This document shows, piece after piece, positions 2,042-28,339 of a stretch of DNA of 34,229 bases. The position numbers and the translations under genes are program-made. Every line of letters starts with the position of its first letter. The first letter of the stretch is position 1. This DNA comes from Sphingomonas sp. (lineage in GTDB: Bacteria; Pseudomonadota; Alphaproteobacteria; Sphingomonadales; Sphingomonadaceae), in the NCBI GenBank assembly GCA_025356055.1, contig JANXUU010000068.1, forward strand, positions 1-34,229. Direction: 5' to 3'. The notes below the pieces were generated by a model. It had not been told where the DNA came from and searched no databases. It saw nothing but the letters and a program-made list of their open reading frames with translations.

Positions 2042-3553
2042 CTAAACAGAAATTTTTGAATTAGCGGGTTGTTCAAGGCCTGCTACAGCACTCGCGAGAG
2101 CGCGACCCTCATCGTCTTTGAGCGCAGCCTCTCGCAGGACCTTCACAAGAGCCGCCGATCCGGGCTGCTGAACGATGTCCGTGAGCCTGCGCATTATCGT
2201 CGCAAAATTGTGGAGGCCGCGCACGTGGGTGCCGCCGTAGCCTTTGATCAGTCGCTGGCAACGGATGATCTCGATCGCTAGATCGGGATCTGTTCTCGCG
2301 GCGTTGAGGGCCGAAGCCAGCCACCCCATAATGCGCGTTTGTTCAAGGCGATAGCGAAGGGTTCCACGGCGCCAACGGCGGAGCGAAGCAATACAGTGAA
2401 GGAGCAGAAAACCGCCGAGCCGCGAAGAGGTGATGGTCCGGTCTTGCTCGAGAAGCGGGCCGAGCAGGCGCCGAGCTCGGTCGGACGCGAGTAAGCTCTC
2501 GCCAAGCCGCCATGGCAGGGTGTCGCAAAGTTCCTCGAAGCGGGGGTGCATATATTCGGTGACGTCGACGATTTGTTCGGGCTGCCCGCGCGCCTCGAGC
2601 AGTACGCGCGCTAAGCGGCTACCGCGGGTTTTGAGGTCGGCAACGCGGATGACGTCTTCGTAGGCCATCCACAAAGCCAGGTACCGTGCCGCCTCGCAAG
2701 TCAGCTTCCAGTTGGGATGCGGCGACAGCTGACGCTCAGCATCCGCCACAGCAGACAACCGGTCGAGATACAGTTCGGCATAGCCGCCATCTTGGTAATC
2801 GGCGAGCCGCTCAACGCCTAGCGTGGCGGTCGGCCACGCCGCCTCCGGCAGGCGGTGCGCAATAGCATTTCGGACGGTAGACAGGCCCGGCGCTGCACCC
2901 GACAAACGCTTCGCGTCGTCCTGTTCGGGCGGAGCGAGGGTCAGGTCGAAGGCTGCCGAGAAAGTTCGCAAACTTGATTCTACCCCTATCCCGCCAGCAC
3001 GAATGGCGTTCTCGAATGCAGCCCGTGGAAAGGGCAGCGCGCCTGATCCAGCAAGAGCACCAAATAAGGCCGCGCTGATCACGCTGCCGTTTCGTTCGGC
3101 AAGTGCCTGGTAGTCGTGAAGGACCAGCCGTCGTGCCGACGTCCTGCAGGCATCGAGCACCTTTGACGGGCTGGTGATGCCGTCGCCCATCGCCGATTTC
3201 TCAGCAATGGCAAAGATGCGGTGGCTTGAGGTGATCAACGTTGTCCGGTCGGGCGTCACCAAGCCACGGGCAATCGCCCGGCCGGCTTCCATCAATTCTG
3301 CCGCAACCACTATGTCAACATCGCCTGGGACCGGCATGAGCGCTTGCACCGGCACGCGGCCAGCAGGATCGGGCGGGCAGAATTCGAGATAATAAACCGT
3401 TGCGCCAGTGCGCTGGGCAACGCCTGGGACGGAGGTTGCCTGTACGAACCAGCCGCACGCGTCACCGGTGGCGACGAGCCAGTCTGCCAGCACGCCCCCG
3501 CCCTGCCCGCCGAGGGCATTGATCGACAGCCGGGTCGGCAAGGCCTCGCTCAC
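2042..3553 (-). CDS. iorB: 2-oxoacid:ferredoxin oxidoreductase (indolepyruvate type), beta subunit
   Basis: This is the partner subunit of IorA, which together decarboxylate aryl 2-oxoacids to acyl-CoA with ferredoxin as electron acceptor. The N-terminal half is the pyruvate-ferredoxin oxidoreductase gamma-type domain, beginning with SINALGGQGGGVLADWL and containing TSVPGVAQRTGATVYY. The C-terminal half (about residues 290-490) matches the DUF6537-like extension typical of the long, roughly 500-residue bacterial IorB. A start at TTG 3598 would overlap iorA by 49 bases. I prefer GTG at 3553, which forms a GTGA overlap with the iorA stop and has an AAGG-like site just upstream, giving 503 residues. 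It is last in the cyclase-iorA-iorB operon. The physiological substrate could be indolepyruvate, another arylpyruvate or, given the neighbour, isatinate. Confidence 0.9.
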   Translation of the reverse strand: MSEALPTRLSINALGGQGGGVLADWLVATGDACGWFVQATSVPGVAQRTGATVYYLEFCPPDPAGRVPVQALMPVPGDVDIVVAAELMEAGRAIARGLVTPDRTTLITSSHRIFAIAEKSAMGDGITSPSKVLDACRTSARRLVLHDYQALAERNGSVISAALFGALAGSGALPFPRAAFENAIRAGGIGVESSLRTFSAAFDLTLAPPEQDDAKRLSGAAPGLSTVRNAIAHRLPEAAWPTATLGVERLADYQDGGYAELYLDRLSAVADAERQLSPHPNWKLTCEAARYLALWMAYEDVIRVADLKTRGSRLARVLLEARGQPEQIVDVTEYMHPRFEELCDTLPWRLGESLLASDRARRLLGPLLEQDRTITSSRLGGFLLLHCIASLRRWRRGTLRYRLEQTRIMGWLASALNAARTDPDLAIEIIRCQRLIKGYGGTHVRGLHNFATIMRRLTDIVQQPGSAALVKVLREAALKDDEGRALASAVAGLEQPANSKISV

Positions 3554-5673
3554 GCCAGCCTTGCCTGACGGCGCCGTTCGCGGCCCGACTGCAGCCAACT
3601 GATCAGGTTGGCGGCTATGCGATGACGGAGTCGATCAAGTGCCGTGGGGTTGTGGACGATGTCAGCACGGAAGAAACTTGGGCAGAGCACGGCGGCATGA
3701 GCGATCTCGCCACACACCCCGCATCCAACGCAGTCATTGTTGACTGCCGCCACCGGATCCTCTCTCAAAGGATCAGGGTTGGGCTTGATCGTGAGCGACG
3801 GACAGCCGGACAGACGAATGCAACTATGGTCGCCCGTGCATAAATCCTCGTCCACGCCGAAGCGCTGCTTTACGATTCGTTTGCCCTCGTTTACTGCTTT
3901 TGCGAACAGTGGCTTTTCGCGGCGCTGGCGATTGAGCATGCATTCGGATTGCGCAATAATGACCTTCGGCCCGACATGCTTGGTCAACATCGCTTCTTTA
4001 AGAGTACTCTTCATCTTCTTGAGGTCGTAGGTTCGGACTGTTCGAACCCAGTCTACCCCAACTCCGCGGACGGCCCGCTCGATTTCGTGGCCAGTGCTTC
4101 GCACGCTGTTTTCGGCCCTAGACGATAGAAGATCCTGTCCGCCGGTTGCAGCCGAATACTCGTTATCGACGATGACGAGCACATTATCGTTTTTGTTAAA
4201 CACTGCATTGCCGACGCCGCTTGTCAGGCCGTTGTGCCAAAAACCGCCGTCGCCCATCACGCTGATCGTACGCCGCGCCGAGTTCTTGACGTTGAACGCA
4301 GACGCGCCGGCCCAGCCCAATCCGTAGCCCATAGTCGTATTACCGATGTTGAAGGGCGGCAGGATCGAGAACAGGTGGCAGCCTATGTCGCACGAGACGT
4401 GGATCGGCCCGAGCTCATTTTGCAACAGCTTCATGGCGGTGAACACCGGCCGTTCAGGGCAACCCGTGCAGAAACCCGCCGGCCGCTGCGGGACATCGGT
4501 CATCGCTAGGGGTATCGGCGCGGGCTTTGGTGGTGGTGCCCGACCTAGGGCACCGTTGAGAAATGCAGCTAACCCATCGGCGAATACTTGTCCGGTATAT
4601 TCACCAGCGCGTGGGAAAATGCTCTTGCCGGACAGAGACGCCGCAACACCGTGCTGGCGCAAAATCGACCCTATCGCTTGCTCGAGATACTCCGGTTGGC
4701 CTTCCTCAACAATCAGCACCGCGCGCTTGTCGTTGCAGAAGGTGGCAATCTCGTCGTCGACGAGCGGATAAGTGACGTTGAGCACGTAGATTGGGATCTG
4801 GGTATCGCCAAAGCGGTCAGCCAGTCCCGCAAGCTCTAGCGCTCGTATTAGAGCGTTGTACATTCCACCCTGGACGATGATGCCGATGTCCGGATGTTGC
4901 GCCCCATGAAAGGTCTCGTTGAGCTTGTGGCTGACGATGTAGTCAATCGCAGCGGGCCAGCGGGCTGCGATTTTCTCCTGCTCGTGGACAAAATTGGCCG
5001 GAGGCAGCACGATCCGGGCGGGGTCGCGGACCGGCGCCTCCATTGCCTGCTTGAGTGACATTGGCGAGCGGCGGTTGTCCCTGGCTTCGAATCGGCCGTG
5101 GAGGTGGCATGCGCGGATGCGAAGTTCCAGCATAACAGGAGTATTGGATGCTTCGGACAAGGCAAAGCCATGCTCGACCATGTCGACAATCATCGGCAGG
5201 TTGGGCCGCGGATCGAGCAGCCAGATTTGCGACTTCATCGCGAAGGCGTGGCTTCGCTCCTGCATGATCGAGGAGCCTTCGCCGTAGTCCTCACCAACGA
5301 TGATCAGCGCGCCGCCGGTTACCCCGCCGCTGGCGACGTTAGCGAGCGCATCGGATGCGACATTGGTGCCGACAGTCGATTTCCACGTCACCGCGCCCCG
5401 CAACGGGTAGTTTACTGATGCGGCCAACATCGCGGCCGCCGAAGCTTCCGAAGCAGACTGTTCGAAGTGAACACCAAGTTCCATGAGCAACGAGTTGGCA
5501 TCGGCGAATACATCCATCAAATGACTAATTGGAGCGCCTTGGTACCCGCCGACATAGGCAACGCCCGATTGCAGCAAGGCTTTGGTGACAGCCAAGATGC
5601 CTTCGCCGTGAAAAACATCCCCTGCGCCTAGCCGCAGTGACTCCACTTCCTTAGCAAAGGACCGCTCCGCCAT
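3550..5673 (-). CDS. iorA: 2-oxoacid:ferredoxin oxidoreductase (indolepyruvate type), alpha subunit
   Basis: This is the large thiamine-diphosphate and iron-sulfur subunit of an indolepyruvate-ferredoxin-oxidoreductase-type enzyme (707 residues, normal for the family). The N-terminal third is the pyrimidine-binding domain (GYQGAPISHLMD, HFEQSASEASAAAM). FCTGCPERPVF precedes the diphosphate/Mg domain, with GDGGFWHNG and VLVIVDNEYSAATGGQ at about residues 460-490. The C-terminus carries two ferredoxin-like cysteine clusters: CTGDHSC with GCP, then CVGCGVCGE with LCP (about residues 610-665). The frame is open much further upstream but runs into the cyclase gene. The ATG at 5673 lies one base after the cyclase stop (TGA-G-ATG), which indicates translational coupling. 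In the cell it would make an aryl- or arylacetyl-CoA from the 2-oxoacid and reduce ferredoxin. No ferredoxin gene is present in the window. Confidence 0.93.
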   Translation of the reverse strand: MAERSFAKEVESLRLGAGDVFHGEGILAVTKALLQSGVAYVGGYQGAPISHLMDVFADANSLLMELGVHFEQSASEASAAAMLAASVNYPLRGAVTWKSTVGTNVASDALANVASGGVTGGALIIVGEDYGEGSSIMQERSHAFAMKSQIWLLDPRPNLPMIVDMVEHGFALSEASNTPVMLELRIRACHLHGRFEARDNRRSPMSLKQAMEAPVRDPARIVLPPANFVHEQEKIAARWPAAIDYIVSHKLNETFHGAQHPDIGIIVQGGMYNALIRALELAGLADRFGDTQIPIYVLNVTYPLVDDEIATFCNDKRAVLIVEEGQPEYLEQAIGSILRQHGVAASLSGKSIFPRAGEYTGQVFADGLAAFLNGALGRAPPPKPAPIPLAMTDVPQRPAGFCTGCPERPVFTAMKLLQNELGPIHVSCDIGCHLFSILPPFNIGNTTMGYGLGWAGASAFNVKNSARRTISVMGDGGFWHNGLTSGVGNAVFNKNDNVLVIVDNEYSAATGGQDLLSSRAENSVRSTGHEIERAVRGVGVDWVRTVRTYDLKKMKSTLKEAMLTKHVGPKVIIAQSECMLNRQRREKPLFAKAVNEGKRIVKQRFGVDEDLCTGDHSCIRLSGCPSLTIKPNPDPLREDPVAAVNNDCVGCGVCGEIAHAAVLCPSFFRADIVHNPTALDRLRHRIAANLISWLQSGRERRRQARLA

Positions 5674-5674
5674 C

Positions 5675-6463
5675 TCAGGCGGGCACCAGCGCGAGTACGC
5701 GCAACGGGCTGCCCGAGCCGCGCACGATCTTGAGCGGCGGGGCGATGATGATTGCACCGGTCGGCGGCAGCTGATCGAGGTTTGTGAGGCTCGCCAGGCC
5801 AAACTTGTTCGCCCCATGCATGAGCGTGTGGCACGGATAGGCGGGATCGAGCGCGAAAGCCTGGCCGGCGTCCGTGCCGACCGTCTCGACTCCGACCCCC
5901 CGCACCTTGCGCTGTTCCGCAAGAAACGGGATCGTTGCCGGGTGCCAGCCGGGAGTATGAGCCCCGTCTTCGGCGAAATTAAGGAACTCCGTCGGGTCTG
6001 TACGCTTCGACCAATCGGTTCGAAACAGCACCCAGGCTCCCTCCGGGATCTGGCCGTGCTGCCGTTCCCATTTCTCAACATAATCGACCGTCACTAGGAA
6101 ATCAGGATTCTCACTTGCCTCGACTGAGGCATCAATGACGCACGCTGGACCAATGAAGCGCTCGACCGGAATGGTATCTGTTGCGTTATTCTCGTGATCC
6201 TTTCCGGTGATGAAATGGATCGGCGCATCGAAATGCGTCCCGGTATGCTCGCCGCACTTAAACCAGTTCCAGTACCAGGCAGGTCCACGCTCGTCATATT
6301 CGGACAGGACTTCGATCTCGAATGGAGGATTCTGTACAAACTCAGCGGGCAGCTGGAGCACTGGTGTAGAGGGCTCGAGGGGTTGAGTCAGGTCCACGAC
6401 CTTGACCGCGCCAGAGACCAGCGCAACCGCCAATCCATTGAGTATATCGCCGCCAACGGTCAC
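5675..6463 (-). CDS. Cyclase-family metal-dependent amidohydrolase (isatin hydrolase / kynurenine formamidase-like)
   Basis: This 262-residue member of the cyclase family (PF04199 type) carries the metal-binding signature HxGTHxDxPxH as HTGTHFDAPIH, with His73, His77, Asp79 and His83. The family contains isatin hydrolase, kynurenine formamidase and relatives that cleave cyclic or linear amide bonds using Mn or Zn. The aromatic stretch WYWNWFKCGE precedes the motif, and the length exceeds that of typical KynB (about 210). Start: GTG at 6463 has an ideal AGGAGG seven bases upstream, whereas an upstream in-frame ATG at 6490 has none. It is first in an operon with iorAB and divergent from a MarR gene. 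Because the hydrolysed form of isatin (isatinate, 2-aminophenylglyoxylate) is itself an aryl 2-oxoacid, coupling to IorAB is suggestive. The specificity is inferred. Confidence 0.85.
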   Translation of the reverse strand: MTVGGDILNGLAVALVSGAVKVVDLTQPLEPSTPVLQLPAEFVQNPPFEIEVLSEYDERGPAWYWNWFKCGEHTGTHFDAPIHFITGKDHENNATDTIPVERFIGPACVIDASVEASENPDFLVTVDYVEKWERQHGQIPEGAWVLFRTDWSKRTDPTEFLNFAEDGAHTPGWHPATIPFLAEQRKVRGVGVETVGTDAGQAFALDPAYPCHTLMHGANKFGLASLTNLDQLPPTGAIIIAPPLKIVRGSGSPLRVLALVPA

Positions 6464-6476: not shown

Positions 6477-6513
6477 GTATTTAGGAGCATGAAGCTGCCT
6501 GATTTACGTGAAT

Positions 6514-6557: not shown

Positions 6558-7040
6558 ATGGCTTCAAAGCGAGACGCCCTTTATCGAGCTGACCCAGCCT
6601 CCGCTGACTTCGAGCTAGCCGACTCGCCGCTTTATTGGCTGGCGCGCGTTGCAGGCCGCTACCGGCTCGACATGGACATGGTCTTGAAGCCGATTGGAAT
6701 GGACGTTCCTCGCTGGCGTGTGCTCGCTATTCTTACCGAGCACGAGCCGGCGAGCGTCACTGAGTTGTGCGATCACGCCGTTATCCGGCTGTCCACTATG
6801 ACCCGCATCGTCAGGCGACTCGCCGATGGCGAGCTGGTTACAACGCGAACGCGCGACTCCGACGCTCGGGTAACCGAAGTCAGGCTAACAGATGCAGGCC
6901 GCGAGGCGGCCGTGAGCGTTCATTCCCAAGCAAGCCGGATATTTCGACATGGCTTTGAAGATTTTTCCGCTGGCGAGGTTGCAACACTTAACGACATGTT
7001 ACAGCGTTTGTTCAGGAATTTCGGTCTGCCCTCGCGCTAG
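6558..7040 (+). CDS. MarR-family transcriptional regulator (first copy)
   Basis: This 160-residue protein has the MarR winged-helix layout. It has an N-terminal dimerisation helix (SPLYWLARVAGRYRLDMD), then RWRVLAILTEHEPASVTELCDH and a recognition helix LSTMTRIVRRLADGELV. The beta wing follows as TRTRDSDARVTEVRLTDAGREA, and the protein ends in a long helix. Such proteins usually repress the adjacent catabolic operon and release DNA on binding an aromatic acid or CoA thioester. It is divergent from the cyclase-iorAB operon, with an inverted repeat in the gap, so that operon is the likely target. The ATG at 6558 is the only good start; an upstream ATG at 6548 stops at once. No strong Shine-Dalgarno is seen. 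Its 3' end overlaps the convergent flavoprotein gene by 29 bases. Confidence 0.92.
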   Translation: MASKRDALYRADPASADFELADSPLYWLARVAGRYRLDMDMVLKPIGMDVPRWRVLAILTEHEPASVTELCDHAVIRLSTMTRIVRRLADGELVTTRTRDSDARVTEVRLTDAGREAAVSVHSQASRIFRHGFEDFSAGEVATLNDMLQRLFRNFGLPSR

Positions 7041-9384
7041 TCACCTCCAATTGCTTGTGGCGCTGCGACTTGGCCTTTTGCTGAAGTTCTGATTGCTTCG
7101 CCCGCGTTTTTGCGGTCTCCCGCATTAACTGAGCGGCCCCCGAAAGATAGGGCTTGGGTACCGCAACGGCACGGGTCGCATACCAAGCCGCAGCGCGCAG
7201 CGTGAAGTTTGGATCTGTGAGGTGAAGCCGGCCCAGCGCCACGAGGTCAGCCCGTCGACAAGCAATGATCGTGTTGACCTGCCCGGGCTCCGTGATTGCG
7301 CCTACGCACATGGTGCGAATGCCGACCTCGTTGCGGACTGTCTCGGAAAACGGCACTTGATACATTCGGCCATAGACCGGGGCTTGATCTGGAACGGTCT
7401 GGCCTGACGACAGGCTAATGAGGTCGCATTCGGCATCCTTGAAGGCGCGCGCGATGACGATGAGATCCTCCTCGCTAAGCCCACCCTCCCGCCAGTCGCT
7501 GGCGGAGAGGCGGACCGACATTGGTTTGGCCGCGGGCCAAGTGGCGCGCATCGCCGCAAACAGTTCAAGCGGAAATCGAAGTCGGTTTTCAATCGACCCG
7601 CCATATTCGTCCGAACGGCGATTGGTGAGCGGCGACAGGAAACTAGCGACAAGGTATCCGTGTGCGGCGTGAAGCTCTAACAAGTCGAAACCGGCTCGAT
7701 CCGCGCGCTGCGCTGCTTCAACGAAATCGGCGATAATGGCGTCCATCCCCGCGCGGTCCAATTCGGCCGGTGCCTGGCTTTCTCCCGGCAACCAAGGGAG
7801 CGGCGACGCGGACACGATTGGCCAATTGAGCGCAGGATCAGCAATCGGATGGTCTGCTGCTTCCCACCCAAGTTGGGTTGATGCCTTGCGCCCGGCATGG
7901 CCAAGTTGGATCGCCAGCTTGGCGGGCCCGTTTTTTTTGGCGAAATCGACGATCCGCTTCCACGCAATTTCCTGAATGTCATTCCACAGTCCCGGACAGC
8001 CCAAGGTAATCCGTGCATCTTTCGATGTGCAGGTCATTTCCACGTAAACGAGGCCTGCACCCCCTACCGCTCGGGCACCATAATGCATCAAGTGCCAATC
8101 GCCAGGCACGCCGTCGACGGCACGATACTGGGCCATGGGCGCTACGACGACACGATTGGGAATCGACAGGCCGCGAAGCGTCAACGGCGTGAACATTGGC
8201 GTCGGGCGTTTGGCGACAAGGTCGATTCCCGTTTCGGCATGGTAGCTTTGGTAGAAATCATCCTCGACTGCCGTAAGAAAGGCAGGGTCCCGCAATTCGA
8301 GATTATCCCACGTGATCGATTTTGCGCGTGACATAACCATCATTGCGAATTGCTGGGGAGGCATGTCCCAAGAACGCTCGACATGTTCGAACCAAGCCAG
8401 CGACACGGCGGCGTTATGTTGGGTGATTTCGATCGCGGTCGCACGGTTTTCTCGATAGGCGTCGAAAGCAGCCGGAACGTCCTGTTCATTCTCCAGCAGC
8501 GCATCGGCCAACGCAATCGCGCTCTCCATCGCCAATTTGGTGCCCGAACCGATTGAGAAATGGGCAGTCGCCATCGCGTCCCCAAGAAGCACGATCCGGC
8601 CATGGGACCAGCGCCGGCAACTAATCCGCGGAAAGTTGCGCCATAGCGACCGGTTGACCAACAAAGGGTGACCTTCGAGATCCTCGGCGAAAATAGCTTC
8701 CAAAGCCCGTGCAGCCTGGTTTTCGTCCATCGAGTCGAAGCCATTCCCTGCCCAGCATTCGGGAGTCGTCTCGATCACCCAAGTCGAACGATCGCGGTCA
8801 TATTGATAGCAGTGGGCGACAATGATCCCATGCGGGGTCTCGCGGAAAAAATAAGTGAAGTCTTTGAGTGGCCGGGTCGAACCCATCCATGTGAATTTGT
8901 TGCGGGTTGGGCTTATGAGCGGCTCAAAGGCGGCGGCGTGGGCATCGCGAATGCGGCTATTGGTCCCGTCGGCGGCTACGATCACATCGGACGAGGCAAG
9001 GTGTTGCTCGATTGTCGTCGGGTCGATCGTTACTCCGTAATGACTTATGACCCCGACTGCATCGGCTCGCGCTTGGAGAATTTGGAGCAACTTCAGCCGC
9101 GAGCAACCAGCGAACCCATTGCCGCCGCACCGGATGTCATGGCCTTTGAAGCGGATGCGGATGTCATCCCAGTAGGCAAAGGCATCGGCGATCATTGCGT
9201 AGGATTCGGGATCGCGGCTGAGGAATTCGCCAAGTGTCTCGTCCGAGAAAACGACTCCAAAGCCAAACGTGTCGTCGGGCTGGTTTTGCTCGAACAATTC
9301 GACGTGCCAGTCGGGTCGTGCCTTCTTTACAAGAATGCCGAGATAGAGGCCCCCTGGACCACCACCAATGATACTGATCCGCAA
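7012..9384 (-). CDS. Two-domain flavoprotein: 2-aminobenzoyl-CoA monooxygenase/reductase-like (FAD hydroxylase fused to old-yellow-enzyme domain)
   Basis: This 790-residue fusion matches the architecture of the 2-aminobenzoyl-CoA monooxygenase/reductase known from Azoarcus evansii, also annotated as bifunctional salicylyl-CoA 5-hydroxylase/oxidoreductase. The N-terminal half (about residues 1-385) is a class A FAD monooxygenase: dinucleotide motif IIGGGPGGLYLG, GFGVVFSDETLG, the AADGTNSRIRD motif and VLLGDAMATAHFSIGSG. The C-terminal half (from about residue 395) is an old-yellow-enzyme FMN domain with NRVVVAPMAQY and LGHAGRKAST. The known reaction hydroxylates 2-aminobenzoyl-CoA and reduces the ring to a non-aromatic 2-amino-5-oxocyclohexene carboxyl-CoA, using O2 and NADH. 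It lies downstream of the ornithine cyclodeaminase-family gene (78-base gap). The CoA ligase, hydratase, dehydrogenase and Rid genes in the window fit this role. A salicylyl-CoA substrate remains possible. Confidence 0.9.
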   Translation of the reverse strand: MRISIIGGGPGGLYLGILVKKARPDWHVELFEQNQPDDTFGFGVVFSDETLGEFLSRDPESYAMIADAFAYWDDIRIRFKGHDIRCGGNGFAGCSRLKLLQILQARADAVGVISHYGVTIDPTTIEQHLASSDVIVAADGTNSRIRDAHAAAFEPLISPTRNKFTWMGSTRPLKDFTYFFRETPHGIIVAHCYQYDRDRSTWVIETTPECWAGNGFDSMDENQAARALEAIFAEDLEGHPLLVNRSLWRNFPRISCRRWSHGRIVLLGDAMATAHFSIGSGTKLAMESAIALADALLENEQDVPAAFDAYRENRATAIEITQHNAAVSLAWFEHVERSWDMPPQQFAMMVMSRAKSITWDNLELRDPAFLTAVEDDFYQSYHAETGIDLVAKRPTPMFTPLTLRGLSIPNRVVVAPMAQYRAVDGVPGDWHLMHYGARAVGGAGLVYVEMTCTSKDARITLGCPGLWNDIQEIAWKRIVDFAKKNGPAKLAIQLGHAGRKASTQLGWEAADHPIADPALNWPIVSASPLPWLPGESQAPAELDRAGMDAIIADFVEAAQRADRAGFDLLELHAAHGYLVASFLSPLTNRRSDEYGGSIENRLRFPLELFAAMRATWPAAKPMSVRLSASDWREGGLSEEDLIVIARAFKDAECDLISLSSGQTVPDQAPVYGRMYQVPFSETVRNEVGIRTMCVGAITEPGQVNTIIACRRADLVALGRLHLTDPNFTLRAAAWYATRAVAVPKPYLSGAAQLMRETAKTRAKQSELQQKAKSQRHKQLEVTSARADRNS

Positions 9385-9462: not shown

Positions 9463-10464
9463 TCAGAAACTTACTTTTTGTCCGATCCCCCGAGCGCATG
9501 CTCGCTCATGGATTAGATGAGCCGCCGCAAGGTCTTGTGCCGCGATCCCGAGCGATTTGTATAGCGTGATGTCCTCCGGGGACGTCCTCCCGGCAAGGCT
9601 GCCGTTAGCGACGTCGCCGATCTCGCCGAGCAGATGGTCAAGACCGATCTTGCCGGAGTCAATCGCGCGACGAAGCTCGCCCGCCTCGTTGATTGCTGAA
9701 AGCCGAAGGTCAACAAAGTAGCGAACCTTAGTAACGAGCGAGACATCGGCTTCGGCGGTCGTAACGATGCTCGACCCAACGAGATTGACGTGAGTCCCCG
9801 GCCCCACATCGGTGCCAAACAAGACAGGATCGCGGGCCTTGCTGACAGTGCAAATAATGTCTGCTCCGGCGACACAGTCGCCGACATTGGCGACTGGTTC
9901 GACCATTAATCCGGTACGCTCTGACTGTTCCTGAGAAAAGCGTTCGGCGCTCGCAAGATTTGGCGACCAAGCGCGCACGCGGCGCAATGGCCGGACGCAT
10001 TGCATCGCCTCAAGGTGACTTACGGCCTGCTCGCCGGTACCCAGGATTGCCAGGTCTCCGGCATCGGGACGCGCCAGAAGGTCGGTGGCGAGCGCACTCA
10101 CGGCGGCGGTGCGGACGGCGGTGATCTCGCCCGCATCAAGGATTGCCACGGGGCGACCGTGCGCCGTCTCGAACAACAGGACTATGCCAAGGTGCGAGGA
10201 GTAGGCGGTCCCAACGTTGCGCGGGCTCAAGCTGACGATCTTGACGCCATAGCACTCCGGATCGGCGAGGAAGCCGCCCATGTTCCCCATCATTCCAATG
10301 TCACCAGGCATTTTTATGACCGTGCGCAAAGGAATTTCAGCGCGACCCTCGGAAACCGCGATCATCGTCCGGCGCATCAGGTCGATGCAATCCGCCATCG
10401 GGAGAAGTTCGCGGATCTCGGCGCCTCGAAGGATGCGTAAATCGACGCCTGGACGTTCGATCAT
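9463..10464 (-). CDS. Ornithine cyclodeaminase / mu-crystallin family NAD(P)-dependent imine reductase or amino acid dehydrogenase
   Basis: This 333-residue protein has the family marks: a substrate-binding half with AEIPLRTVIKMPGD and GVKIVSLSP, the hinge ILDAGEITAVRTAAVSAL, and a Rossmann domain starting LAILGTGEQAVSHLEAM. Family members include ornithine cyclodeaminase, ketimine reductase, alanine dehydrogenase and iminosuccinate reductase, so the exact reaction cannot be read from sequence. The frame extends to 10491, but the ATG at 10464 forms an ATGA overlap with the stop of the upstream class V PLP gene and starts the protein just before the first conserved strand. Coupling to a PLP enzyme suggests that it reduces or forms an imino/2-oxo acid related to that enzyme's amino acid. 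It is probably not a true ornithine cyclodeaminase, given the aromatic context. Confidence 0.85.
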   Translation of the reverse strand: MIERPGVDLRILRGAEIRELLPMADCIDLMRRTMIAVSEGRAEIPLRTVIKMPGDIGMMGNMGGFLADPECYGVKIVSLSPRNVGTAYSSHLGIVLLFETAHGRPVAILDAGEITAVRTAAVSALATDLLARPDAGDLAILGTGEQAVSHLEAMQCVRPLRRVRAWSPNLASAERFSQEQSERTGLMVEPVANVGDCVAGADIICTVSKARDPVLFGTDVGPGTHVNLVGSSIVTTAEADVSLVTKVRYFVDLRLSAINEAGELRRAIDSGKIGLDHLLGEIGDVANGSLAGRTSPEDITLYKSLGIAAQDLAAAHLIHERACARGIGQKVSF

Positions 10465-11606
10465 GAGGCAAAGCTGTCCTTTAGTTCGCACATCGCGTTG
10501 ATGAAGGCAGCGATGTCGTTTTCATTATTATAGAAATGGAAGGCCGCCCTAAGGTTTTGGTCACGGTGGGACACGACAATATTGCGCTTTTCCAAAGCAG
10601 CGGCGAGGCCGCCGCTGTCACGGGATGGTATCGCAATCATCGCGCCACGGCGAGAGTCGTCGCGCGGCGTGATCGCCGGCCATCCGATTTTGGCAAGCTG
10701 GTCCATGCATTGCCCTGATAGGCTGCGCACACGTTTCTCGATTGCATCGGTTCCGATTTCCGCGATGATCCCTAAAGCCGCTTCCGCTGCATAGCAGGCA
10801 ACGACCGGCGGAGTTCCCCCCTCGAACCGGCGTGCCGTTAAGGACGGGCAATTGCTCTTTATGTTCATCGCATTGATGTCGGCCTGCGCAAACCATCCGG
10901 AGACGGTTGGCAGGAGTTGTTGAATAAGCGAGCCACGGACATAAAGGAATCCGATACCCGCCGTTGCCAGCAGATATTTGTAGAGTCCACCAACCGCAAA
11001 ATCGACGTCGAGCGCGCCTACATCCACTGTCATTGAGCCAACCGACTGATAGCAATCTAGCATCATGAGCGCACCGCGGTCGTGAGCAATGCGGCCAATT
11101 GCCGCTGCGTCCAGCCGGGCGCCGTTCCTAAAGCCTACGTGGGTAACCGCCACTAACCGGGTACGCTCGTCGATGGCATCTGCGAAGCGCTCAGGTGAAA
11201 TCCAGCCATCGGCGCCTAACGGCACATGGACGACGCGTGCACCGCGCGTTTCTTGGGCGTGCCAAATCTGCGCATTGGTCGGGAACTCGAGGTCACTGGT
11301 GACGATGGTGTCGCGCTTGCCGCTAAAGTCGAGCGCACTTGCGACGGCATTGATCCCGGCTGTGGTGGAACTTGTCACTGCAATCTCGTCGGGCGTTGCC
11401 CTCAGGATAGTCGCGAGCCCGGACCGCACTGCTTCATTCTTCGCGACCCATACTTCCCAGTTGGCGCCGACTGCGAGCCGGTCGTCCAGGTAGCTTGAGA
11501 AAGCGGCCCGAACGGAGTCAGCCAAGGCTGCGTAGGAACCGCTATTGAGGTACGTCTTTTCGCCAAGCAGTGGAAAGCGACTGCGCAACGCTTCAAAATC
11601 AGTCAT
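10461..11606 (-). CDS. Class V PLP-dependent enzyme (aminotransferase / epimerase / kynureninase-like fold)
   Basis: This 381-residue class V PLP enzyme has the N-terminal TYLNSGSYAALADSV typical of the isopenicillin-N-epimerase and cysteine-desulfurase-like branch. It has an SSTTAGINAVAS cofactor-phosphate loop, MMLDCYQSVG with Asp184 for the pyridine nitrogen, and VGGLYKYLLA with the presumed Schiff-base Lys210. Class V includes alanine-glyoxylate aminotransferases, desulfurases and kynureninase, and the sequence does not settle which activity applies. In an anthranilate-related island a kynureninase-like C-C lyase or an aminotransferase is attractive, but this is inference. The start codon lies only 36 bases from the divergent PLP dehydratase start. 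The gene is coupled by ATGA to the ornithine cyclodeaminase-family gene. Confidence 0.88.
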   Translation of the reverse strand: MTDFEALRSRFPLLGEKTYLNSGSYAALADSVRAAFSSYLDDRLAVGANWEVWVAKNEAVRSGLATILRATPDEIAVTSSTTAGINAVASALDFSGKRDTIVTSDLEFPTNAQIWHAQETRGARVVHVPLGADGWISPERFADAIDERTRLVAVTHVGFRNGARLDAAAIGRIAHDRGALMMLDCYQSVGSMTVDVGALDVDFAVGGLYKYLLATAGIGFLYVRGSLIQQLLPTVSGWFAQADINAMNIKSNCPSLTARRFEGGTPPVVACYAAEAALGIIAEIGTDAIEKRVRSLSGQCMDQLAKIGWPAITPRDDSRRGAMIAIPSRDSGGLAAALEKRNIVVSHRDQNLRAAFHFYNNENDIAAFINAMCELKDSFAS

Positions 11607-11642
11607 GACTAGCTGTTCCCTACCTCAGCCCGGAGCGACTCA

Positions 11643-12605
11643 ATGTTCGCCAATGTCGAGCCGATCAGTCTTGCCGAAATACAAGCCGCACATCGGCGCC
11701 TCCGCGAAATTGCACTTCGCACCCCGGTCATTCGCTGTGACGCGGCGCAAGCGGGCCGCGATCTGTGGCTCAAGCTGGAAAATCTTCAGCAGATTGGATC
11801 GTTCAAGGTTCGGCCAATCGGGAATGCTGTCCTGTCGCGTGATTGCAGCGTGCTTGCCCGCGGCATTTACACTTCGAGCTCGGGAAATAGCGCACTTGGC
11901 TTGGCGTGGATGGCACGCAAGCTGGGTATCGGCGCGACCGCAGTGGTTCCGGAGAATGCCCCAGAGGCGAAACTTGTTGGCCTGCGCAAGCTCGGCGCGC
12001 AAATCATTATGCTTCCCTATGCTCAGTGGTGGCAGGTCATTGAAACGGGTCATCACGAAGGCCTCGATGGCCTCTACATCGACGCAGTACGCGATCCGGC
12101 CGCGCTCGCCGGGGACGGAACGATTGGCGTCGAGATCGCCGAGGATGCGGGCGAACTCGATGCGGTTTTCATCCCTTTTGGTGGTGGCGGGCTTGCCTGC
12201 GGGATAGCCTGCGCCCTCAAGGCACTGCGGCCTTCTGTCAAAATCGTGGTCTGCGAACTGGCCAGCGCGCAACCGCTTAAGGCGGCCTTGTCGGCGGGCC
12301 GTCCGGTAACCGTGCAAGCGGCCCCCGGTTTTGTCAGCGGGGTCGGCTATAGCCGAGTGCTGCCAGAAATGTGGACGTTGGTATCGTCGCTTGTCGACGA
12401 GGTAGTCACTGTCACTCTTGACCAGGTAAAGGCAGCGATCCGAGTGATGGTCGCCACCAATCACGTCGTCGCTGAAGGAGCTGGCGCCGTCTCCGTCGCA
12501 GCGGCGCTTTATGGCGCGCACTCCCACCGGCGGGTCTGCGCCGTGGTATCGGGCGGGAACCTTGACCCGGCCCAGCTCGCAGAAATAGTCACGTCAGGCG
12601 GTTAG
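11643..12605 (+). CDS. Threonine dehydratase-like PLP enzyme (fold type II)
   Basis: This 320-residue fold-type-II PLP protein resembles serine/threonine dehydratases and hydroxyaspartate dehydratase/racemase relatives. The Schiff-base lysine is in IGSFKVRPIGNA (Lys55), followed by the substrate loop SSSGNSALGLAW. The glycine-rich phosphate loop FGGGGLACGIAC comes near residue 180. Such enzymes remove water or ammonia from beta-hydroxy amino acids, or racemise them. The classic SFKxRGA motif is altered to SFKVRPI, with Pro where Gly is usual, so the specificity may be shifted. The ATG at 11643 has a GGAG eight bases upstream. It is divergent from the class V PLP gene and convergent with the permease, whose stop overlaps it by 12 bases. 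A beta-hydroxy amino acid substrate is an inference. Confidence 0.86.
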   Translation: MFANVEPISLAEIQAAHRRLREIALRTPVIRCDAAQAGRDLWLKLENLQQIGSFKVRPIGNAVLSRDCSVLARGIYTSSSGNSALGLAWMARKLGIGATAVVPENAPEAKLVGLRKLGAQIIMLPYAQWWQVIETGHHEGLDGLYIDAVRDPAALAGDGTIGVEIAEDAGELDAVFIPFGGGGLACGIACALKALRPSVKIVVCELASAQPLKAALSAGRPVTVQAAPGFVSGVGYSRVLPEMWTLVSSLVDEVVTVTLDQVKAAIRVMVATNHVVAEGAGAVSVAAALYGAHSHRRVCAVVSGGNLDPAQLAEIVTSGG

Positions 12606-14000
12606 ATCGGCTGAAAGCGCAAGCGGAACCGCGTCCCGATGGCTTCGCTTCCAGGCGAAGTAGGCCAGCGTGATGAAACCAAGCCACGGCACCCCCACGA
12701 TCCACGAGATATTCCAGAACTCCGTGTCCAGCCCCATTGTCACGAGGATCGCCCCGAGCAACGCCAGCCCTGTGATCTGCATGAAGGGAAATAGCGGCAT
12801 TCGGACGGGAAGGGCAGCCTTTCCGTGATGCCGACGGAAGCTCAAATGGCTGACCAAGATGGTTATCCAGACAACTATGGCTCCAAACAGCGCGACACCG
12901 AACAAGTAATTGTAAGCGAGCGGAGTCACCACCGAAAGTGCGGCGGCCGCGAGAATGCTTGCGCCCGATACGAGGATGGCCGCGACCGGCGTGCCATTTT
13001 TACTAAGCTTGCCCAGAAATGAGGGGGCGTATGACCCCCGCGACAAGGAAAAGAGCATCCTCGAGCAAAGGTAGACGTTGGTGTTCATGCTCGACAAGGC
13101 GGCGGTAATGACAACAAAGTTCATCATTCCTGCAGCATGGCGAATGCCGCTATGCGCGAACACTTTTACGAACGGGCTTTGGGTGATGACTTTGGCGCCG
13201 GTCTCCGTCCAGGGCACAAAACTGACGACGATTGCCAAGGCCAGGATGTAGAAAAGAAAGAGACGAAAAGCCATGGTTCGAAGCGCCGCGGGGATTGCCG
13301 TTACGGGATCTTTTGTCTCGCCCGAAGTCACGGCGATGACCTCGATCCCGTTGAATGAGAAAATTCCAATTAGGACGCCCATCCACACTCCGCCAAGACC
13401 GTGAGGAAGAAAACCGCCTGGTAGGCCAGTAAGATTGGCGGCGCCTGTCGCCGGCTGCCCGATGCCGAAGATAGTTGACGCGCCAACGATGATAAAAACA
13501 ACGATAGCGGCCACCTTGATGAAGGCGAACCAATATTCGATCGTCCCAAAATTGCCGACCGAGCGCGAGTTGAAATAGAGCAGGATGCTCGCGAAACCGA
13601 TCGACCATATCCACACCGGGAGCTCTGGAAACCAGTATCCCATGTAGAGACCAACGGCGACTGCCTCGCCGCCAACCGCGATGACCTGGGCCAACCAATA
13701 AGTGTAACGGACCATAAAGCCGGCCCATGGATTGAGGTAGGTTTCCGCATATATGCCAAAAGAACCCGCGGTTGGATGAACGACAGCCATTTCCGACAGG
13801 CTGAACACCATTACTACGGCGATGAAACCCGCGACAATGTAGCTGAGCAGGACGCCCGGCCCTGCATATCCAATCGCCAGCCCACTGCCGAGAAACAGCC
13901 CTGTCCCGATGGCGCCTCCAAGTCCGATCATCGTGATCTGGGCTTTGCTCAAAGACTGCTGCAGGCCCTGCTCGCCGATCGTGACCGGGTCCTTGTCCAT
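12594..14000 (-). CDS. Amino-acid permease, APC superfamily (copy A)
   Basis: This 468-residue inner-membrane transporter of the amino acid-polyamine-organocation superfamily is predicted to have about 12 membrane helices. The N-terminal signature ITMIGLGGAIGTGLFLGSG in helix 1 and SLSEMAVVHPTAGSFG after helix 2 are typical of AnsP/AroP/GabP-type proton symporters. MAIPAALRT-like sequence and LSSMNTNVYLCSRML are further family marks. Transport of an aromatic or other bulky amino acid is expected but not proven. The frame extends to GTG 14015; ATG 14000 has GGGAG about eight bases upstream and is preferred. It shares roughly two-thirds of its residues by eye with the second permease at 31709-33109, which makes the two paralogs. 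Upstream sequence contains a TGCTTTAAGCA palindrome. Confidence 0.92.
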   Translation of the reverse strand: MDKDPVTIGEQGLQQSLSKAQITMIGLGGAIGTGLFLGSGLAIGYAGPGVLLSYIVAGFIAVVMVFSLSEMAVVHPTAGSFGIYAETYLNPWAGFMVRYTYWLAQVIAVGGEAVAVGLYMGYWFPELPVWIWSIGFASILLYFNSRSVGNFGTIEYWFAFIKVAAIVVFIIVGASTIFGIGQPATGAANLTGLPGGFLPHGLGGVWMGVLIGIFSFNGIEVIAVTSGETKDPVTAIPAALRTMAFRLFLFYILALAIVVSFVPWTETGAKVITQSPFVKVFAHSGIRHAAGMMNFVVITAALSSMNTNVYLCSRMLFSLSRGSYAPSFLGKLSKNGTPVAAILVSGASILAAAALSVVTPLAYNYLFGVALFGAIVVWITILVSHLSFRRHHGKAALPVRMPLFPFMQITGLALLGAILVTMGLDTEFWNISWIVGVPWLGFITLAYFAWKRSHRDAVPLALSADLTA

Positions 14001-14047
14001 CCGTTGGGCTCCCACCAGGGCCGTGCAGTCCGCCGGCCATATATATT

Positions 14048-14175: not shown

Positions 14176-14982
14176 ATGGGTTCGGGTGACGGCGCGATAG
14201 TGGTGGAACGGCAGGGTGAACAGTTTGCTAGCGGTGCCCGGCATGCTGTAATCACTGGAGGCGGAACCGGGATTGGCGCGGCAATCGCCCGTTCGCTCGC
14301 CAAGGATGGCAACAACGTAACGCTTATCGGGCGCCGTCCTGCGCCAATCGCAAGTCTGGCCGAGGAAATCGGAGGGTTCTCATATGCCGCGGATGTGACC
14401 GAGCGTTTCTCTGTCAACGCGGCATTCGAGAAAGCGCGCGTCGCCTTGGGCCCAATTGAGATTCTGGTAAATTGCGCGGGGGACGCGCCAAGCGGCAAGT
14501 TTGCAACGATCTCGCTCGATCAATGGCGCGCAACCATGGCAGTGAACCTCGACGCGCTGTTTATTTGCGTCCAAGCTGCGTTGCCTGATTTACTGGCAGC
14601 AACAGCGGGGAGGATCGTTACGATCTCGTCGACCGCGGGCCTCAAGGGATACGCCTATGTTGCTCCCTATGTTGCGGCCAAGCATGGCGCAATCGGACTG
14701 ACTCGAGCGCTAGCGGCAGAATTCGCCTCAACTGCCCTTACGGTCAACGCGGTTTGTCCGGGCTTTACCGATACCGATATGGTGGCTCGTGCGGTCACTA
14801 CCATCGGCGCCTTAACTGGACGGGACGAGCAGGCAGCCCGCGCCGAACTGGCGCGCTATAATCCTCAGCGCAGACTGATCGCGCCCGAAGAGGTGGCAGC
14901 AGCCGTATCGTGGCTGTGCCGGCTCGACAGCCAGTCGATTACTGGCCAGGCAATCGCCGTGGCCGGCGGAGAAGTAACGTGA
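14176..14982 (+). CDS. Short-chain dehydrogenase/reductase (SDR)
   Basis: This classical SDR of about 268 residues has the nucleotide motif ITGGGTGIGAAIA, the structural LVNCAGDAPSG, and the catalytic Ser in TISSTAGLKG. The YVAAK of YVAPYVAAKHGAIG holds the catalytic Tyr and Lys, and VNAVCPGFTDTDM follows. It interconverts an alcohol and a ketone with NAD(P)H. First in an operon with MarR, enoyl-CoA hydratase-like, acyl-CoA dehydrogenase and Rid genes, it probably acts on a hydroxy- or oxo-acyl-CoA of the pathway, for example the ring ketone left by the flavoprotein. The frame also offers a TTG at 14161; ATG 14176 follows an AGGGGG-like ribosome site and is preferred. Its stop overlaps the MarR start as GTGA. 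Confidence 0.9.
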   Translation: MGSGDGAIVVERQGEQFASGARHAVITGGGTGIGAAIARSLAKDGNNVTLIGRRPAPIASLAEEIGGFSYAADVTERFSVNAAFEKARVALGPIEILVNCAGDAPSGKFATISLDQWRATMAVNLDALFICVQAALPDLLAATAGRIVTISSTAGLKGYAYVAPYVAAKHGAIGLTRALAAEFASTALTVNAVCPGFTDTDMVARAVTTIGALTGRDEQAARAELARYNPQRRLIAPEEVAAAVSWLCRLDSQSITGQAIAVAGGEVT

Positions 14983-15479
14983 GCAAAACGAAGATCCGCG
15001 AAATACATGATGGAAATCTCGGCGGTGGGCCGACGGACATTAGGTTGTGGCTGCGCTTGCTCGGCTGCTCGACAGTCATCGAAAAGCGATTGCGTCGCAA
15101 GCTCGCGGAGCGGTCGTCAACACTACCGCGGTTTGACGTGATGGCCGCACTTGTGCGCCATCCGGAAGGACTCACAATGTCGGCCCTGTCCCGCCAACTC
15201 CTAGTGTCCAACGGCAACATCACCCATCTTGTGCACTGGCTCGCTAAGGAGGGTCTCGTTGAGATCGAACAGTGCAGTCACGATGGTCGTTCGACTATAA
15301 CTCGCCTGGCGCCAAAAGGTGCAGAAGCCTTCGCCGTCCTTTCCCGAGAGCATCACCAATGGGTCGAGACGATGTTCGCCGGACTCGCCGCAAACGATAA
15401 AGAGAGATTGTTTGTCCTGCTCGGCAGGCTGCGGACCTCCGTTGAAGAATCGAAGGAGGACAGCGTCCGTGCAGCCTGA
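14979..15479 (+). CDS. MarR-family transcriptional regulator (second copy)
   Basis: This 166-residue MarR-type regulator has [21 protein letters not shown] (dimer helix), [30 protein letters not shown] (helix-turn-helix), the recognition helix [13 protein letters not shown], and the wing [24 protein letters not shown] at 14979 is preferred over upstream in-frame codons: it overlaps the SDR stop as GTGA and has GGAG about seven bases before it. It is embedded in the operon, not divergent, so it probably autoregulates the SDR-to-Rid unit. It binds a ligand that may be an aromatic acid or aryl-CoA, as known for MarR proteins of CoA-dependent aromatic pathways. It is only distantly similar to the MarR protein at 6558. 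Confidence 0.9.
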
Positions 15480-16278
15480 AGCCTTTACACCAGAACACTT
15501 CGCCTGGGCCTTTGAGCGGGGTGTAGGGACCGTCACCCTCAACCGGCCTGAACGCAAGAACCCCCTAACATTCGACAGTTATGCGGAACTGCGCGACCTG
15601 TTTCGTGACCTCTCGAGCAGTCCCGCCATCAAATCAATCGTCGTCTCGGGCTCGGGCGGAAACTTCAGCTCTGGCGGCGACGTGCATGAGATCATTGGCC
15701 CATTGACCCGCATGGCAATGCCTGAGTTGCTTGCCTTTACTCGTATGACCGGTGACCTCGTTAAGGCAATGCGCTCCTGTCCCCAGCCAATCGTCGCGGC
15801 TATCGACGGGGTATGTGCTGGCGCTGGTGCGATACTTGCTATGGCTTCGGACCTACGCTTGGCTACGCCGCGCGCAAAGACTGCCTTCTTGTTCACAAGG
15901 GTGGGGCTCGCAGGTTGCGACATGGGAGCCTGTGCCATCTTGCCAAGATTGATCGGCCAGGGACGTGCCGCCGACCTACTGTTTACTGGCCGGGTCATGA
16001 CCGCGGAAGAGGGTGAGCGCTGGGGCTTTCATAATCGGCTGGTCGATCCAGAAGCACTAGATCGCGAGGCCTTTGGGCTGGCTCAGTCATTGTCATCGGG
16101 ACCAACCTTTGCGCATGGGATTACGAAGACCATGCTCAATACGGAATGGAATGTCAGTCTCGAAACAGCGATCGAGATGGAGGCCCAAGCCCAAGCAATA
16201 TGCATGACAACCAATGATTTTCGTCGCGCCTTCGAGGCCTTTTCCGAAAAGCGCTCTCCAATTTTTGAGGGTAATTAA
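15469..16278 (+). CDS. Enoyl-CoA hydratase/isomerase (crotonase) family protein
   Basis: This 269-residue crotonase-fold protein has [21 protein letters not shown] at its N-terminus. The two oxyanion-hole segments are SSGGDVHEI and [17 protein letters not shown], and [20 protein letters not shown] follows. GTG at 15469 has AAGGAGGA eight bases upstream and overlaps the MarR gene by 11 bases; the longer frame start at 15319 is not supported. In eye alignment with classical hydratase, the two catalytic glutamates appear replaced, by Thr143 and Asp169. It may therefore catalyse a ring hydrolysis, C-C cleavage or isomerisation rather than simple hydration. It acts on CoA thioesters in the cytoplasm and is followed by acyl-CoA dehydrogenase with a TAATG overlap. 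Confidence 0.88.
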
Positions 16279-17444
16279 TGGCTGACACCAGCTTCCTAGA
16301 CTGGCCTTTTTTCGATGATCGCCACCGCGCAATAGCTCGTGATCTTGATGCGTGGTGCGCGAGCGAGCTCGACCATCACGAGCCCGAGGATGTGGATGCG
16401 GCCTGCCGCTCGCTTGTCGCGAAACTCGGCGCGGGCGGTTGGCTAAGATATGCGGTGCCGGCCGAATTCGGCGGGATGGACGAAACACTCGACGTTCGTA
16501 CCTTGTCGCTCATTCGCGAGACGCTTGCGCGCCATTCGGGCCTCGCGGACTTCGTGTTTGCCATGCAGGGCCTTGGCTCGGGCACGATAAGTCTGTTCGG
16601 GACGAATGAACAGAAACAGCACTATCTGCCAGCCGTTGCGCGCGGCGAGAAAATCGCCGCCTTTGCGCTTACCGAGCCTGGGGCGGGAAGCGACGTTGCA
16701 GCGTGCGAGACTAGTGCGACCGAGCACGAAGGCTCATTTCGCATCAACGGCGCCAAGACCTACATCTCCAATGGTGGCATCGCTGATTATTATATCCTCT
16801 TTGCTCGCACTGGCGAAGCGCCCGGGGCACGTGGACTCTCCAGCTTTATCGTCGACGCCGATGCCCGCGGACTGTCGATTGGCGCACGTCTGCGGGTCAT
16901 TGCTCCCCACCCTCTTGCCCAGATCGACTTTCATGATGTCGAAGTTAGCAGCGGCGCCTTGCTTGGCGTACGCGGCGACGGATTTCGTCAGGCAATGGCA
17001 ACACTTGATATCTTTCGTACGACGGTCGGCGCAGCTGCTCTTGGGTTCGCTCGGCGCGCGCTTGATGAAGCCACCGGGCGAGTACTTGAACGCCAGCTTG
17101 GTGGGGCTCTGCTGGCTGACAATGCCGTCGTCCAGGCGCAACTCGCCGAGATGATTCTCGCGGTCGATAGCGCGGCGCTGCTAGTCTATCGCGCTGGCTG
17201 GGTTCGCGATGTGCAGCAACGGCGAAATACCCGTGAGGCGGCACTCGCCAAGCTTCATGCCACAGAAGCTGCGCAGCGAGTCGTTGACCAAGCCGTGCAG
17301 CTATTCGGCGGGGCGGGCGTAACCCACGGTGTCATTGTTGAAGCGCTATACCGCGAAGTTCGCGCGTTGCGCATCTATGAAGGGGCATCGGAGGTGCAGC
17401 GCATGGTCATTGCTCGCCAGCATATCGCGGAGGCACGGTCATGA
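16278..17444 (+). CDS. Acyl-CoA dehydrogenase
   Basis: This 388-residue FAD enzyme introduces a 2,3 double bond into an acyl-CoA. It has the N-terminal helical domain, the middle-domain signatures [14 protein letters not shown] and [12 protein letters not shown], and the C-terminal [12 protein letters not shown] and [13 protein letters not shown]. The latter carries the presumed catalytic base Glu368. The start ATG overlaps the preceding stop (TAATG) and the end overlaps the Rid gene by four bases, so the stoichiometry of these gene products is probably linked. In the proposed pathway it would oxidise a cyclic or ring-opened intermediate after the flavoprotein step. Electrons would go to an electron-transfer flavoprotein that is not in the window. 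Confidence 0.94.
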
Positions 17445-24885: not shown

Positions 24886-24906
24886 ATCGATCCCCTCCAT
24901 ATGTTT

Positions 24907-28308: not shown

Positions 28309-28339
28309 ACTGTATACGGAACCAAGGATCAGTTTCTTG

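Follow-up and report, generated by a model that had tools for sequence, protein, structure and literature searches.

A candidate isatin hydrolase-IorAB operon in Sphingomonas sp. and a predicted direct route from isatin to 2-aminobenzoyl-CoA

The DNA considered here, referred to below as the window, comprises positions 1 to 34,229 of contig JANXUU010000068.1 of Sphingomonas sp. (assembly GCA_025356055.1; 34,229 nucleotides). On its minus strand, running from 6463 to 2042, is an operon that probably combines an isatin hydrolase with a dedicated 2-oxoacid:ferredoxin oxidoreductase, IorAB, which would convert isatinate to 2-aminobenzoyl-coenzyme A (CoA). The hydrolase would open isatin, which arises in the degradation of indole compounds, to isatinate (2-aminophenylglyoxylate) and, from the class of the second enzyme, we infer that IorAB, using thiamine diphosphate (TPP), CoA and Fe-S clusters, would turn isatinate into 2-aminobenzoyl-CoA, CO2 and reduced ferredoxin. 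The thioester would then be carried to central metabolism by a flavoprotein resembling 2-aminobenzoyl-CoA monooxygenase/reductase (ACMR; 7012-9384) and by short-chain dehydrogenase/reductase (SDR), enoyl-CoA hydratase (ECH), acyl-CoA dehydrogenase (ACAD) and RidA proteins, which are encoded with a MarR-type protein at 14221-17851; the flavoprotein gene and this set are together termed the ACMR module. Such a route would deliver a CoA thioester directly from isatin breakdown, saving the ATP of re-activation, and would explain the use of the module in genomes without a recognisable ligase.

The hydrolase and its coupled oxidoreductase

The hydrolase gene (5675-6463), which encodes a 262-aa protein of the cyclase family PF04199, starts with a GTG codon preceded by AGGAGG, and an alternative in-frame ATG is found at 6490. 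A single G separates its TGA stop from the ATG of the IorA gene (3550-5673; junction TGAGATG), and the start of the IorB gene (2042-3553) overlaps the IorA stop in the sequence GTGA. The open reading frames (ORFs) and both junctions thus bear out the translational coupling claimed in the original prediction for this DNA.

The top matches of the hydrolase in the PDB are isatin hydrolases (5nmp, 360 bits; 5nna, 317 bits; 4j0n, 302.5 bits), whereas the N-formylkynurenine formamidase KynB (4cob) scored only 31.5 bits and the KynB model TIGR03035 gave 41.1 bits against a cut-off of 223. According to the accessible text of PMC6117287, isatin hydrolases carry the motif HxG[T/A]HxDxPxH and a GLAS or GLQC sequence at the position of the Gln219/Ala224 pair, and all verified KynB proteins share a glutamate at the position of Gln219 of LaIHA. 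The window enzyme contains HTGTHFDAPIH, the metal motif that had been ascribed to it as common to isatin hydrolase and KynB and that fits the published isatin hydrolase motif, as well as GLAS, the alanine of which occupies the position of the KynB glutamate. The scores and the missing glutamate speak against KynB identity and answer the question, initially left between the two families, of which the cyclase is nearer: judged by its sequence, it is an isatin hydrolase.

IorB, a 503-aa protein consisting of a POR domain and DUF6537, exceeds the curated cut-off of NF006179 (639.3 against 348 bits). IorA, the TPP subunit and the proposed alpha subunit of an isatinate oxidoreductase, matches the TPP domain PF02775 (62.9 bits) and contains a GDG...DN stretch and, in a Cys-rich C-terminal region, cysteines 612, 618, 624, 648, 651, 654 and 664, which we take to be the TPP site and the Fe-S cysteines of a 2-oxoacid:ferredoxin oxidoreductase. 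Because IorA reaches only 294.9 bits with the IOR_alpha model TIGR03336, far under the equivalog cut-off of 650.9, it is by this measure not a standard indolepyruvate oxidoreductase.

Linkage of the hydrolase to TPP-dependent enzymes

A survey of 385 alphaproteobacterial genomes, in which isatin hydrolase was recognised by profile at E ≤ 1e-60 and IorB by the NF006179 cut-off, found the IorB family in 59 and an isatin hydrolase in 13, all 13 of which also have the IorB family (Fisher 7.6e-12). The surroundings of the hydrolase were followed in the best 80 of 587 confirmed stretches from a scan of genome contigs, mostly from metagenome-assembled genomes (MAGs) and 30 of them without full flanks, with gene content scored by tblastn at set thresholds. 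IorA/IorB genes are present in 52 of the 80 loci and lie ≤600 bp from the hydrolase in 26, genes of the indole-3-acetic acid degradation (iad) type are found in 24, and module genes (ACMR, or ECH with SDR, ACAD or RidA) in 15, of which 12 have IorAB. In a further locus, L039 from an alphaproteobacterium, iadDE-like Rieske genes, hydrolase, IorA and IorB face RidA, ACAD, ECH, MarR-type, SDR and ACMR genes on the opposite strand, while single-strand orders of ACMR-hydrolase-IorA-IorB and ECH-ACAD-hydrolase-IorA-IorB-RidA are found in L099 and L095, respectively. Sets like that at 14221-17851 accompany the ACMR gene in L039, L094, L096, L101, L105, L107, L117 and L147. Two of the three module loci without IorAB (L154, L164) have IorA elsewhere in the genome, and the third (L147) has a pair of other TPP genes, as follows.

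Of the 28 loci that lack IorAB, nine have two small TPP ORFs just before the hydrolase, and one more (L170), truncated by the end of its contig, still shows the second subunit there. The ORF pair of L132 matches PF02776 and PF02775, the N- and C-terminal TPP domains, and the pairs of the other loci are 55-77% identical to it. Neither ORF occurs in any of the 52 loci with IorAB (Fisher 8e-6 against the loci without). A whole-genome search for IorA, covering 23 of the 28 genomes (L098, L157, L161, L162 and L169 were left out), detected it at 67-72% identity elsewhere in 11, two of the matches being partial, and not at E ≤ 1e-80 in 12; all ten genomes with the TPP ORFs belong to these 12 (Fisher 6.7e-5), and in another of the 12 (L149), where no pair is seen, the contig begins at the hydrolase. 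Among 25 genomes whose hydrolase locus lacks the pair (21 of these loci have IorAB), a search with the second TPP subunit gave no match at E ≤ 1e-20 outside the genomes of L099 and L167, in which the matches are 33-39% identical. In L172 (9398-10774), a single MAG, one ORF of 458 residues encodes a fusion of the second TPP subunit with isatin hydrolase. Since two different TPP-dependent 2-oxoacid enzymes, IorAB and the split decarboxylase, alternate beside the hydrolase, isatinate is the likely substrate of both.

After length filtering, 83 IorA sequences, of which 34 belong to hydrolase loci (most of them sampled via the hydrolase) and 49 do not, were placed in a tree built by a quick method with a midpoint root. 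All 34 fall within one clade of 43 (SH-aLRT 100), which holds the window IorA, and the hydrolase-locus label requires five changes on the tree against about 26.6 in shuffles. The nine remaining members come from loci without a hydrolase (L034, L038, L041, L043-L047 and L091), L041 belonging to genome G294, which has a hydrolase on another contig. Loci L079 and L084, where IorAB is found near tryptophan 2,3-dioxygenase (TDO)-like, class V pyridoxal phosphate (PLP) and ACMR genes, were not counted as support, as their IorA lies outside the clade and their genomes have the ligase; their class V PLP genes are 27-29% identical to that of the window.

The predicted thioester product and rival readings

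ACMR enzymes are characterized by an FAD monooxygenase half and an FMN-dependent old-yellow-enzyme half in a single chain. The flavoprotein encoded at 7012-9384 on the minus strand, named in the original prediction as the recipient of the thioester, has both halves (FAD_binding_3 and Oxidored_FMN); it just misses the salicylyl-CoA 5-hydroxylase model NF006101 (1016.6 against a cut-off of 1078), and its preference for 2-aminobenzoyl-CoA over salicylyl-CoA is a predicted one. In the 385 alphaproteobacteria, the window genome included, the module marker (hydratase NF006107 over cut-off) was detected in 62 and a 2-aminobenzoate-CoA ligase orthologue (E ≤ 1e-100) in 76; both occur in 56, ≤10 kb apart in 45 of these. 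Six genomes have the marker without the ligase orthologue, and three of them (G193, G202 and G294) have IorB.

The ligase was also sought in 16 genomes reached through their hydrolase loci. No match of more than 37% identity was obtained in any of the 12 genomes that combine the hydrolase, IorAB and module genes within a single locus (L039, L093, L094, L095, L096, L099, L101, L105, L107, L117, L119 and L141; the ACMR gene is not in the stretch seen of L093, L095 and L119), and no orthologue was found in the genome of L154, which has the module and IorA elsewhere, whereas those of L146, L147 and L167 gave matches of 50-52% identity. The resulting difference (0/11 versus 55/60 with G202 and the window excluded, Fisher 1.7e-9; 2/14 versus 55/60 with the window, L039 and L167 counted, Fisher 2.2e-8) comes from a comparison that mixes clades and MAGs and whose rows are not independent. 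In L147, which has no IorA, the TPP pair, hydrolase, ACMR, SDR, ECH, ACAD, ligase and RidA genes form one row. Four Paraburkholderia loci (L120, L121, L126 and L135) have a thioesterase-like gene (4HBT_2 scanned in L135) placed between those for IorB and the hydrolase, as would suit a thioester whose hydrolysis then gives anthranilate. The conversion of isatinate to 2-aminobenzoyl-CoA by IorAB, proposed originally from the window alone, has therefore gained comparative support from the linkage, the TPP-enzyme replacement and the ligase results, with the reaction itself still deduced from the enzyme class. The accompanying idea of an alternative to anthranilate re-activation is strengthened by the 12 genomes but had overlooked a likely ligase in the window itself.

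Related genes are known from iad loci. Genes of the IorA/IorB family, there named iadA and iadB, are described in the accessible text of PMC9613470 as exclusive markers of iad-like operons, and isatin, isatinic acid and anthranilate as detected in iad-type degradation. No reaction assigned to iadA/iadB was found in the accessible parts of the iad literature consulted, and iadA, iadB and indolepyruvate are not mentioned in the available text of the preprint PMC12633357. There, iadI is annotated as a kynurenine formamidase and presented as an amidase of possibly broad specificity; the arrangement of genes in L124, L130 and similar loci of Achromobacter and Variovorax suggests that iadI is the isatin hydrolase considered here. 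The same text reports that strong accumulation of C8H7NO3 and C7H7NO is confined to Variovorax strains that lack the iad locus and overexpress the whole iadC-K2 region, in which iadA/iadB are absent, and that tandem mass spectrometry (MS/MS) shows C8H7NO3 not to be N-formylanthranilate. The formulae fit isatinic acid and 2-aminobenzaldehyde, respectively, and the accumulation of C8H7NO3 is as expected if the isatinate-consuming enzyme is missing; as far as the deletion is described, it removed genes 77-53 and with them iadA (gene 72) and, presumably, iadB. Mutants of iadA and iadB in Pseudomonas LY1 were dismissed as evidence, since the cluster, as presented in the accessible text of PMC8383072, is organised like iac-type loci and its gene letters differ. 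If IorAB acts on isatinate, a role would be provided for iadA/iadB, a gene pair also present in bacteria that degrade auxin (a plant hormone).

Several observations weigh against a dedicated isatinate oxidoreductase forming the thioester. The window encodes its own likely 2-aminobenzoate-CoA ligase (25438-27048, plus strand), predicted from its linkage to the module and its nearest PDB match, the anthranilate-CoA ligase 4wv3 (283 bits; next 2v7b, 242), and this organism could therefore also activate anthranilate at the expense of ATP. A ligase is likewise present in the L146 and L167 genomes, more distant candidates (37% identity in the L107 genome, 34% in the L099 and L101 genomes) suggest that such a ligase could serve in the 12 genomes, and G182, G292 and G320 have the module marker with neither ligase orthologue nor IorB over cut-off. 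In six of the 13 alphaproteobacteria with a hydrolase (G065, G185, G187, G279, G281 and G357), this protein scores lower (386-397 bits) and is encoded on a different contig from IorB, as are the two genes in a seventh, G294; the tree includes an IorA from four of the six, and it lies outside the clade (L053 and L056 gave no row). Module genes and IorAB are not significantly associated within loci (12/52 versus 3/28, p 0.24), and both IorA and the TPP pair are missing in L131. Furthermore, iadC-K2 alone fully restores anthranilate in Variovorax lacking the iad locus, according to the available text of the preprint (PMC12633357), so that isatinate can reach anthranilate another way there, which argues against an essential role of IorAB. 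Finally, nine of the 43 clade members are not from hydrolase loci, and arylglyoxylates other than isatinate may therefore be substrates of the clade. A general arylglyoxylate oxidoreductase that accepts isatinate among other substrates, with isatin hydrolase linkage as just one of its settings, overlaps with the isatinate-specific reading and is a lesser possibility; eight in-clade sequences from seven genomes in which no isatin hydrolase was found at E ≤ 1e-60 speak for it, and the 34 of 43 from isatin hydrolase loci, most sampled because of the hydrolase, speak against it.

The ligase and the aminotransferases of the window, the Variovorax result and the relatedness of IorA to indolepyruvate oxidoreductase models could also be accommodated if isatinate were converted to anthranilate for activation by the ligase, with IorAB forming an arylacetyl-CoA from another 2-oxoacid, such as indolepyruvate or dioxindolylpyruvate supplied by those aminotransferases. 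This is unlikely in view of the 12 comparable genomes without a ligase orthologue and the low equivalog score of IorA, and the presence of a TPP enzyme adjoining the hydrolase in IorA-less loci points to the hydrolase product as substrate. Very improbable is a role of the cyclase as the N-formylkynurenine formamidase of this genome, in an operon for tryptophan breakdown with the TDO gene of contig C150. A search of the genome for a second TIGR03035 match found none, which counts in its favour, as do an ORF adjoining that TDO gene (24% identical to the class V PLP enzyme of the window and perhaps a kynureninase), the order TDO-class V PLP-hydrolase-IorAB, with a TDO-family gene, in L122, and the annotation of Variovorax iadI. 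Nevertheless, the TIGR03035 score and missing glutamate, the location of TDO on a different contig and the MS/MS exclusion of N-formylanthranilate for C8H7NO3 in the text seen of PMC12633357 argue otherwise, and IorAB and the aldolase fusions described below would be left without a role. Oxidative decarboxylation of isatinate by IorAB is accordingly the reading preferred here.

Proposed source of isatin, genomic setting and known systems

The operon is part of a larger gene set, other members of which may produce isatin. On the minus strand from 24969 to 19507, genes for a TonB-dependent receptor (22558-24969), a luciferase-like flavin monooxygenase resembling SfnG/RutA (21458-22558), an HpcH/HpaI-type aldolase (20706-21461) and a class I aminotransferase (19507-20709) form one row, in which the monooxygenase and aldolase genes overlap, as do the start and stop of the aldolase and aminotransferase genes. 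HpaI aldolases release pyruvate from 4-hydroxy-2-oxoacids, and the 4-hydroxy-2-oxoacid that would yield isatin is dioxindolylpyruvate, the 2-oxoacid of dioxindolylalanine, an oxidised tryptophan. The aldolase is proposed to be isatin-releasing: relatives are fused to isatin hydrolase in L111 (9203-10768; 521 aa, Afifellaceae MAG) and L115 (9188-10774; 528 aa, Microvirga antarctica), another is located 78 bp upstream of it in L137, and IorA-IorB-hydrolase comes after genes for an aldolase, an aminotransferase and a permease in L140 and L168. At least one relative of the aldolase, aminotransferase, flavin monooxygenase or class V PLP enzyme was found in 19 of the 80 hydrolase loci and in none of 54 control IorB loci (Fisher 2.3e-5).

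With less support than the steps from isatin onwards, dioxindolylalanine might thus be taken up and transaminated by the product of 19507-20709 to dioxindolylpyruvate, which the aldolase would split into isatin and pyruvate. It can be proposed, tentatively and at rather less than even likelihood, that the window encodes a whole catabolic route for oxidised tryptophan, from import of dioxindolylalanine through transamination and aldol cleavage (or a kynureninase-like PLP enzyme acting on the free amino acid) to isatin and pyruvate (or alanine), hydrolysis, and IorAB-dependent formation of 2-aminobenzoyl-CoA without ATP, with the split TPP decarboxylase replacing IorAB in some Chloroflexi, Planctomycetota, Gemmatimonadetes, Bacteroidetes and Fraserbacteria. 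No bacterial degradation route for oxindolyl- or dioxindolylalanine was found in the accessible parts of the literature, and neither such a whole route, nor linkage of isatin hydrolase with indolepyruvate ferredoxin oxidoreductase, nor isatinate degradation via CoA was found described in a search that left subscription journals largely outside. The aldolase- and decarboxylase-isatin hydrolase fusions make the steps before and after isatin hydrolysis testable enzymes and suggest oxidised tryptophan as a bacterial growth substrate.

Other loci contain further candidate partners. A sodium:neurotransmitter-type transporter (Pfam scan of L132), the TPP pair and the hydrolase occur in one row in L132 (6456-10768), L125 (1271-4565) and L172 (7496-10774), that of L132 also holding a class V PLP enzyme, and the transporter suggests an amino acid as the isatin source. 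In L105, L113, L117 and L119, a GMC oxidoreductase (Pfam scan of L105) with a small partner is encoded near a TonB receptor, the hydrolase and IorAB, and could oxidise dioxindole to isatin. Alongside the hydrolase, IorAB and the class V PLP enzyme, L122 (7927-9785) encodes a short TDO-family protein (PF03301, 95 bits) that might, speculatively, be an oxindole-forming MarE relative instead of TDO.

Within the window, a MarR-type gene (6558-7040, plus strand), named from its translation and 41% identity to an L039 gene, diverges from the operon. The beta-oxidation-like set on the plus strand consists of SDR (14221-14982), MarR-type (14970-15479), ECH (NF006107; 15466-16278), ACAD (16278-17444) and RidA (17441-17851) genes. 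Minus-strand genes for an ornithine cyclodeaminase/archaeal alanine dehydrogenase-like protein (9463-10491; under the curated cut-offs shown) and a class V PLP enzyme (10461-11606; kynureninase/SufS-like but under both cut-offs, with relatives recurring beside isatin hydrolases) adjoin a threonine dehydratase-like gene, the three together occupying 9463-12605, and relatives of an amino acid permease (12594-14015, minus strand) are found beside isatin hydrolases in L096, L102, L104, L140 and L168. A DapA-related aldolase, a GntR-like regulator, an aldehyde dehydrogenase and a second aminotransferase, encoded at 27065-31667, might, as a matter of speculation, supply anthranilate to the ligase via 2-aminobenzaldehyde. 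Serine-recombinase-like (294-1979) and transposase-like (33309-34229) genes, recognised from their translations, lie near the two contig ends, and searches of four same-family genomes at set cut-offs did not find the IorB family, the hydrolase or the ligase, for which reasons the cluster may have been acquired by this genome. Scans of the window for tRNA and Rfam families gave no matches.

An indoleacetate-degrading reading of the window was ruled out. A search of its genome with the iadD-like protein of L039 gave five matches, the best by E-value 29% identical and one of 34% spanning 102 residues; a close relative of iadD, and hence an iadDE oxygenase with iorA/iorB, is therefore lacking, and no Rieske or thiolase gene was found among the 20 window proteins scanned. 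The window enzyme shares its family and motifs with the isatin hydrolases of Labrenzia aggregata and Ralstonia solanacearum, which are described as enzymes in PMC6117287, the accessible text of which does not contain the word operon. The iad loci of Variovorax, Achromobacter and Bradyrhizobium have iadA/iadB in common with the window IorAB but, unlike these loci, the window carries the 2-aminobenzoyl-CoA module. Phenylglyoxylate:acceptor oxidoreductase, a multi-subunit enzyme of anaerobes that oxidatively decarboxylates an aryl 2-oxoacid to an aroyl-CoA and forms benzoyl-CoA, catalyses the type of reaction proposed for IorAB, a likeness drawn from its general description rather than by sequence comparison; IorAB differs in having two subunits and in a proposed downstream monooxygenase that is O2-dependent. 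The aerobic 2-aminobenzoyl-CoA pathway comprises a ligase, ACMR and beta-oxidation-like genes, and the ACMR architecture, similar companion genes and a ligase orthologue are also found in the window, although here entry is proposed to occur by oxidative decarboxylation of isatinate in place of, or besides, ATP-dependent ligation of anthranilate.

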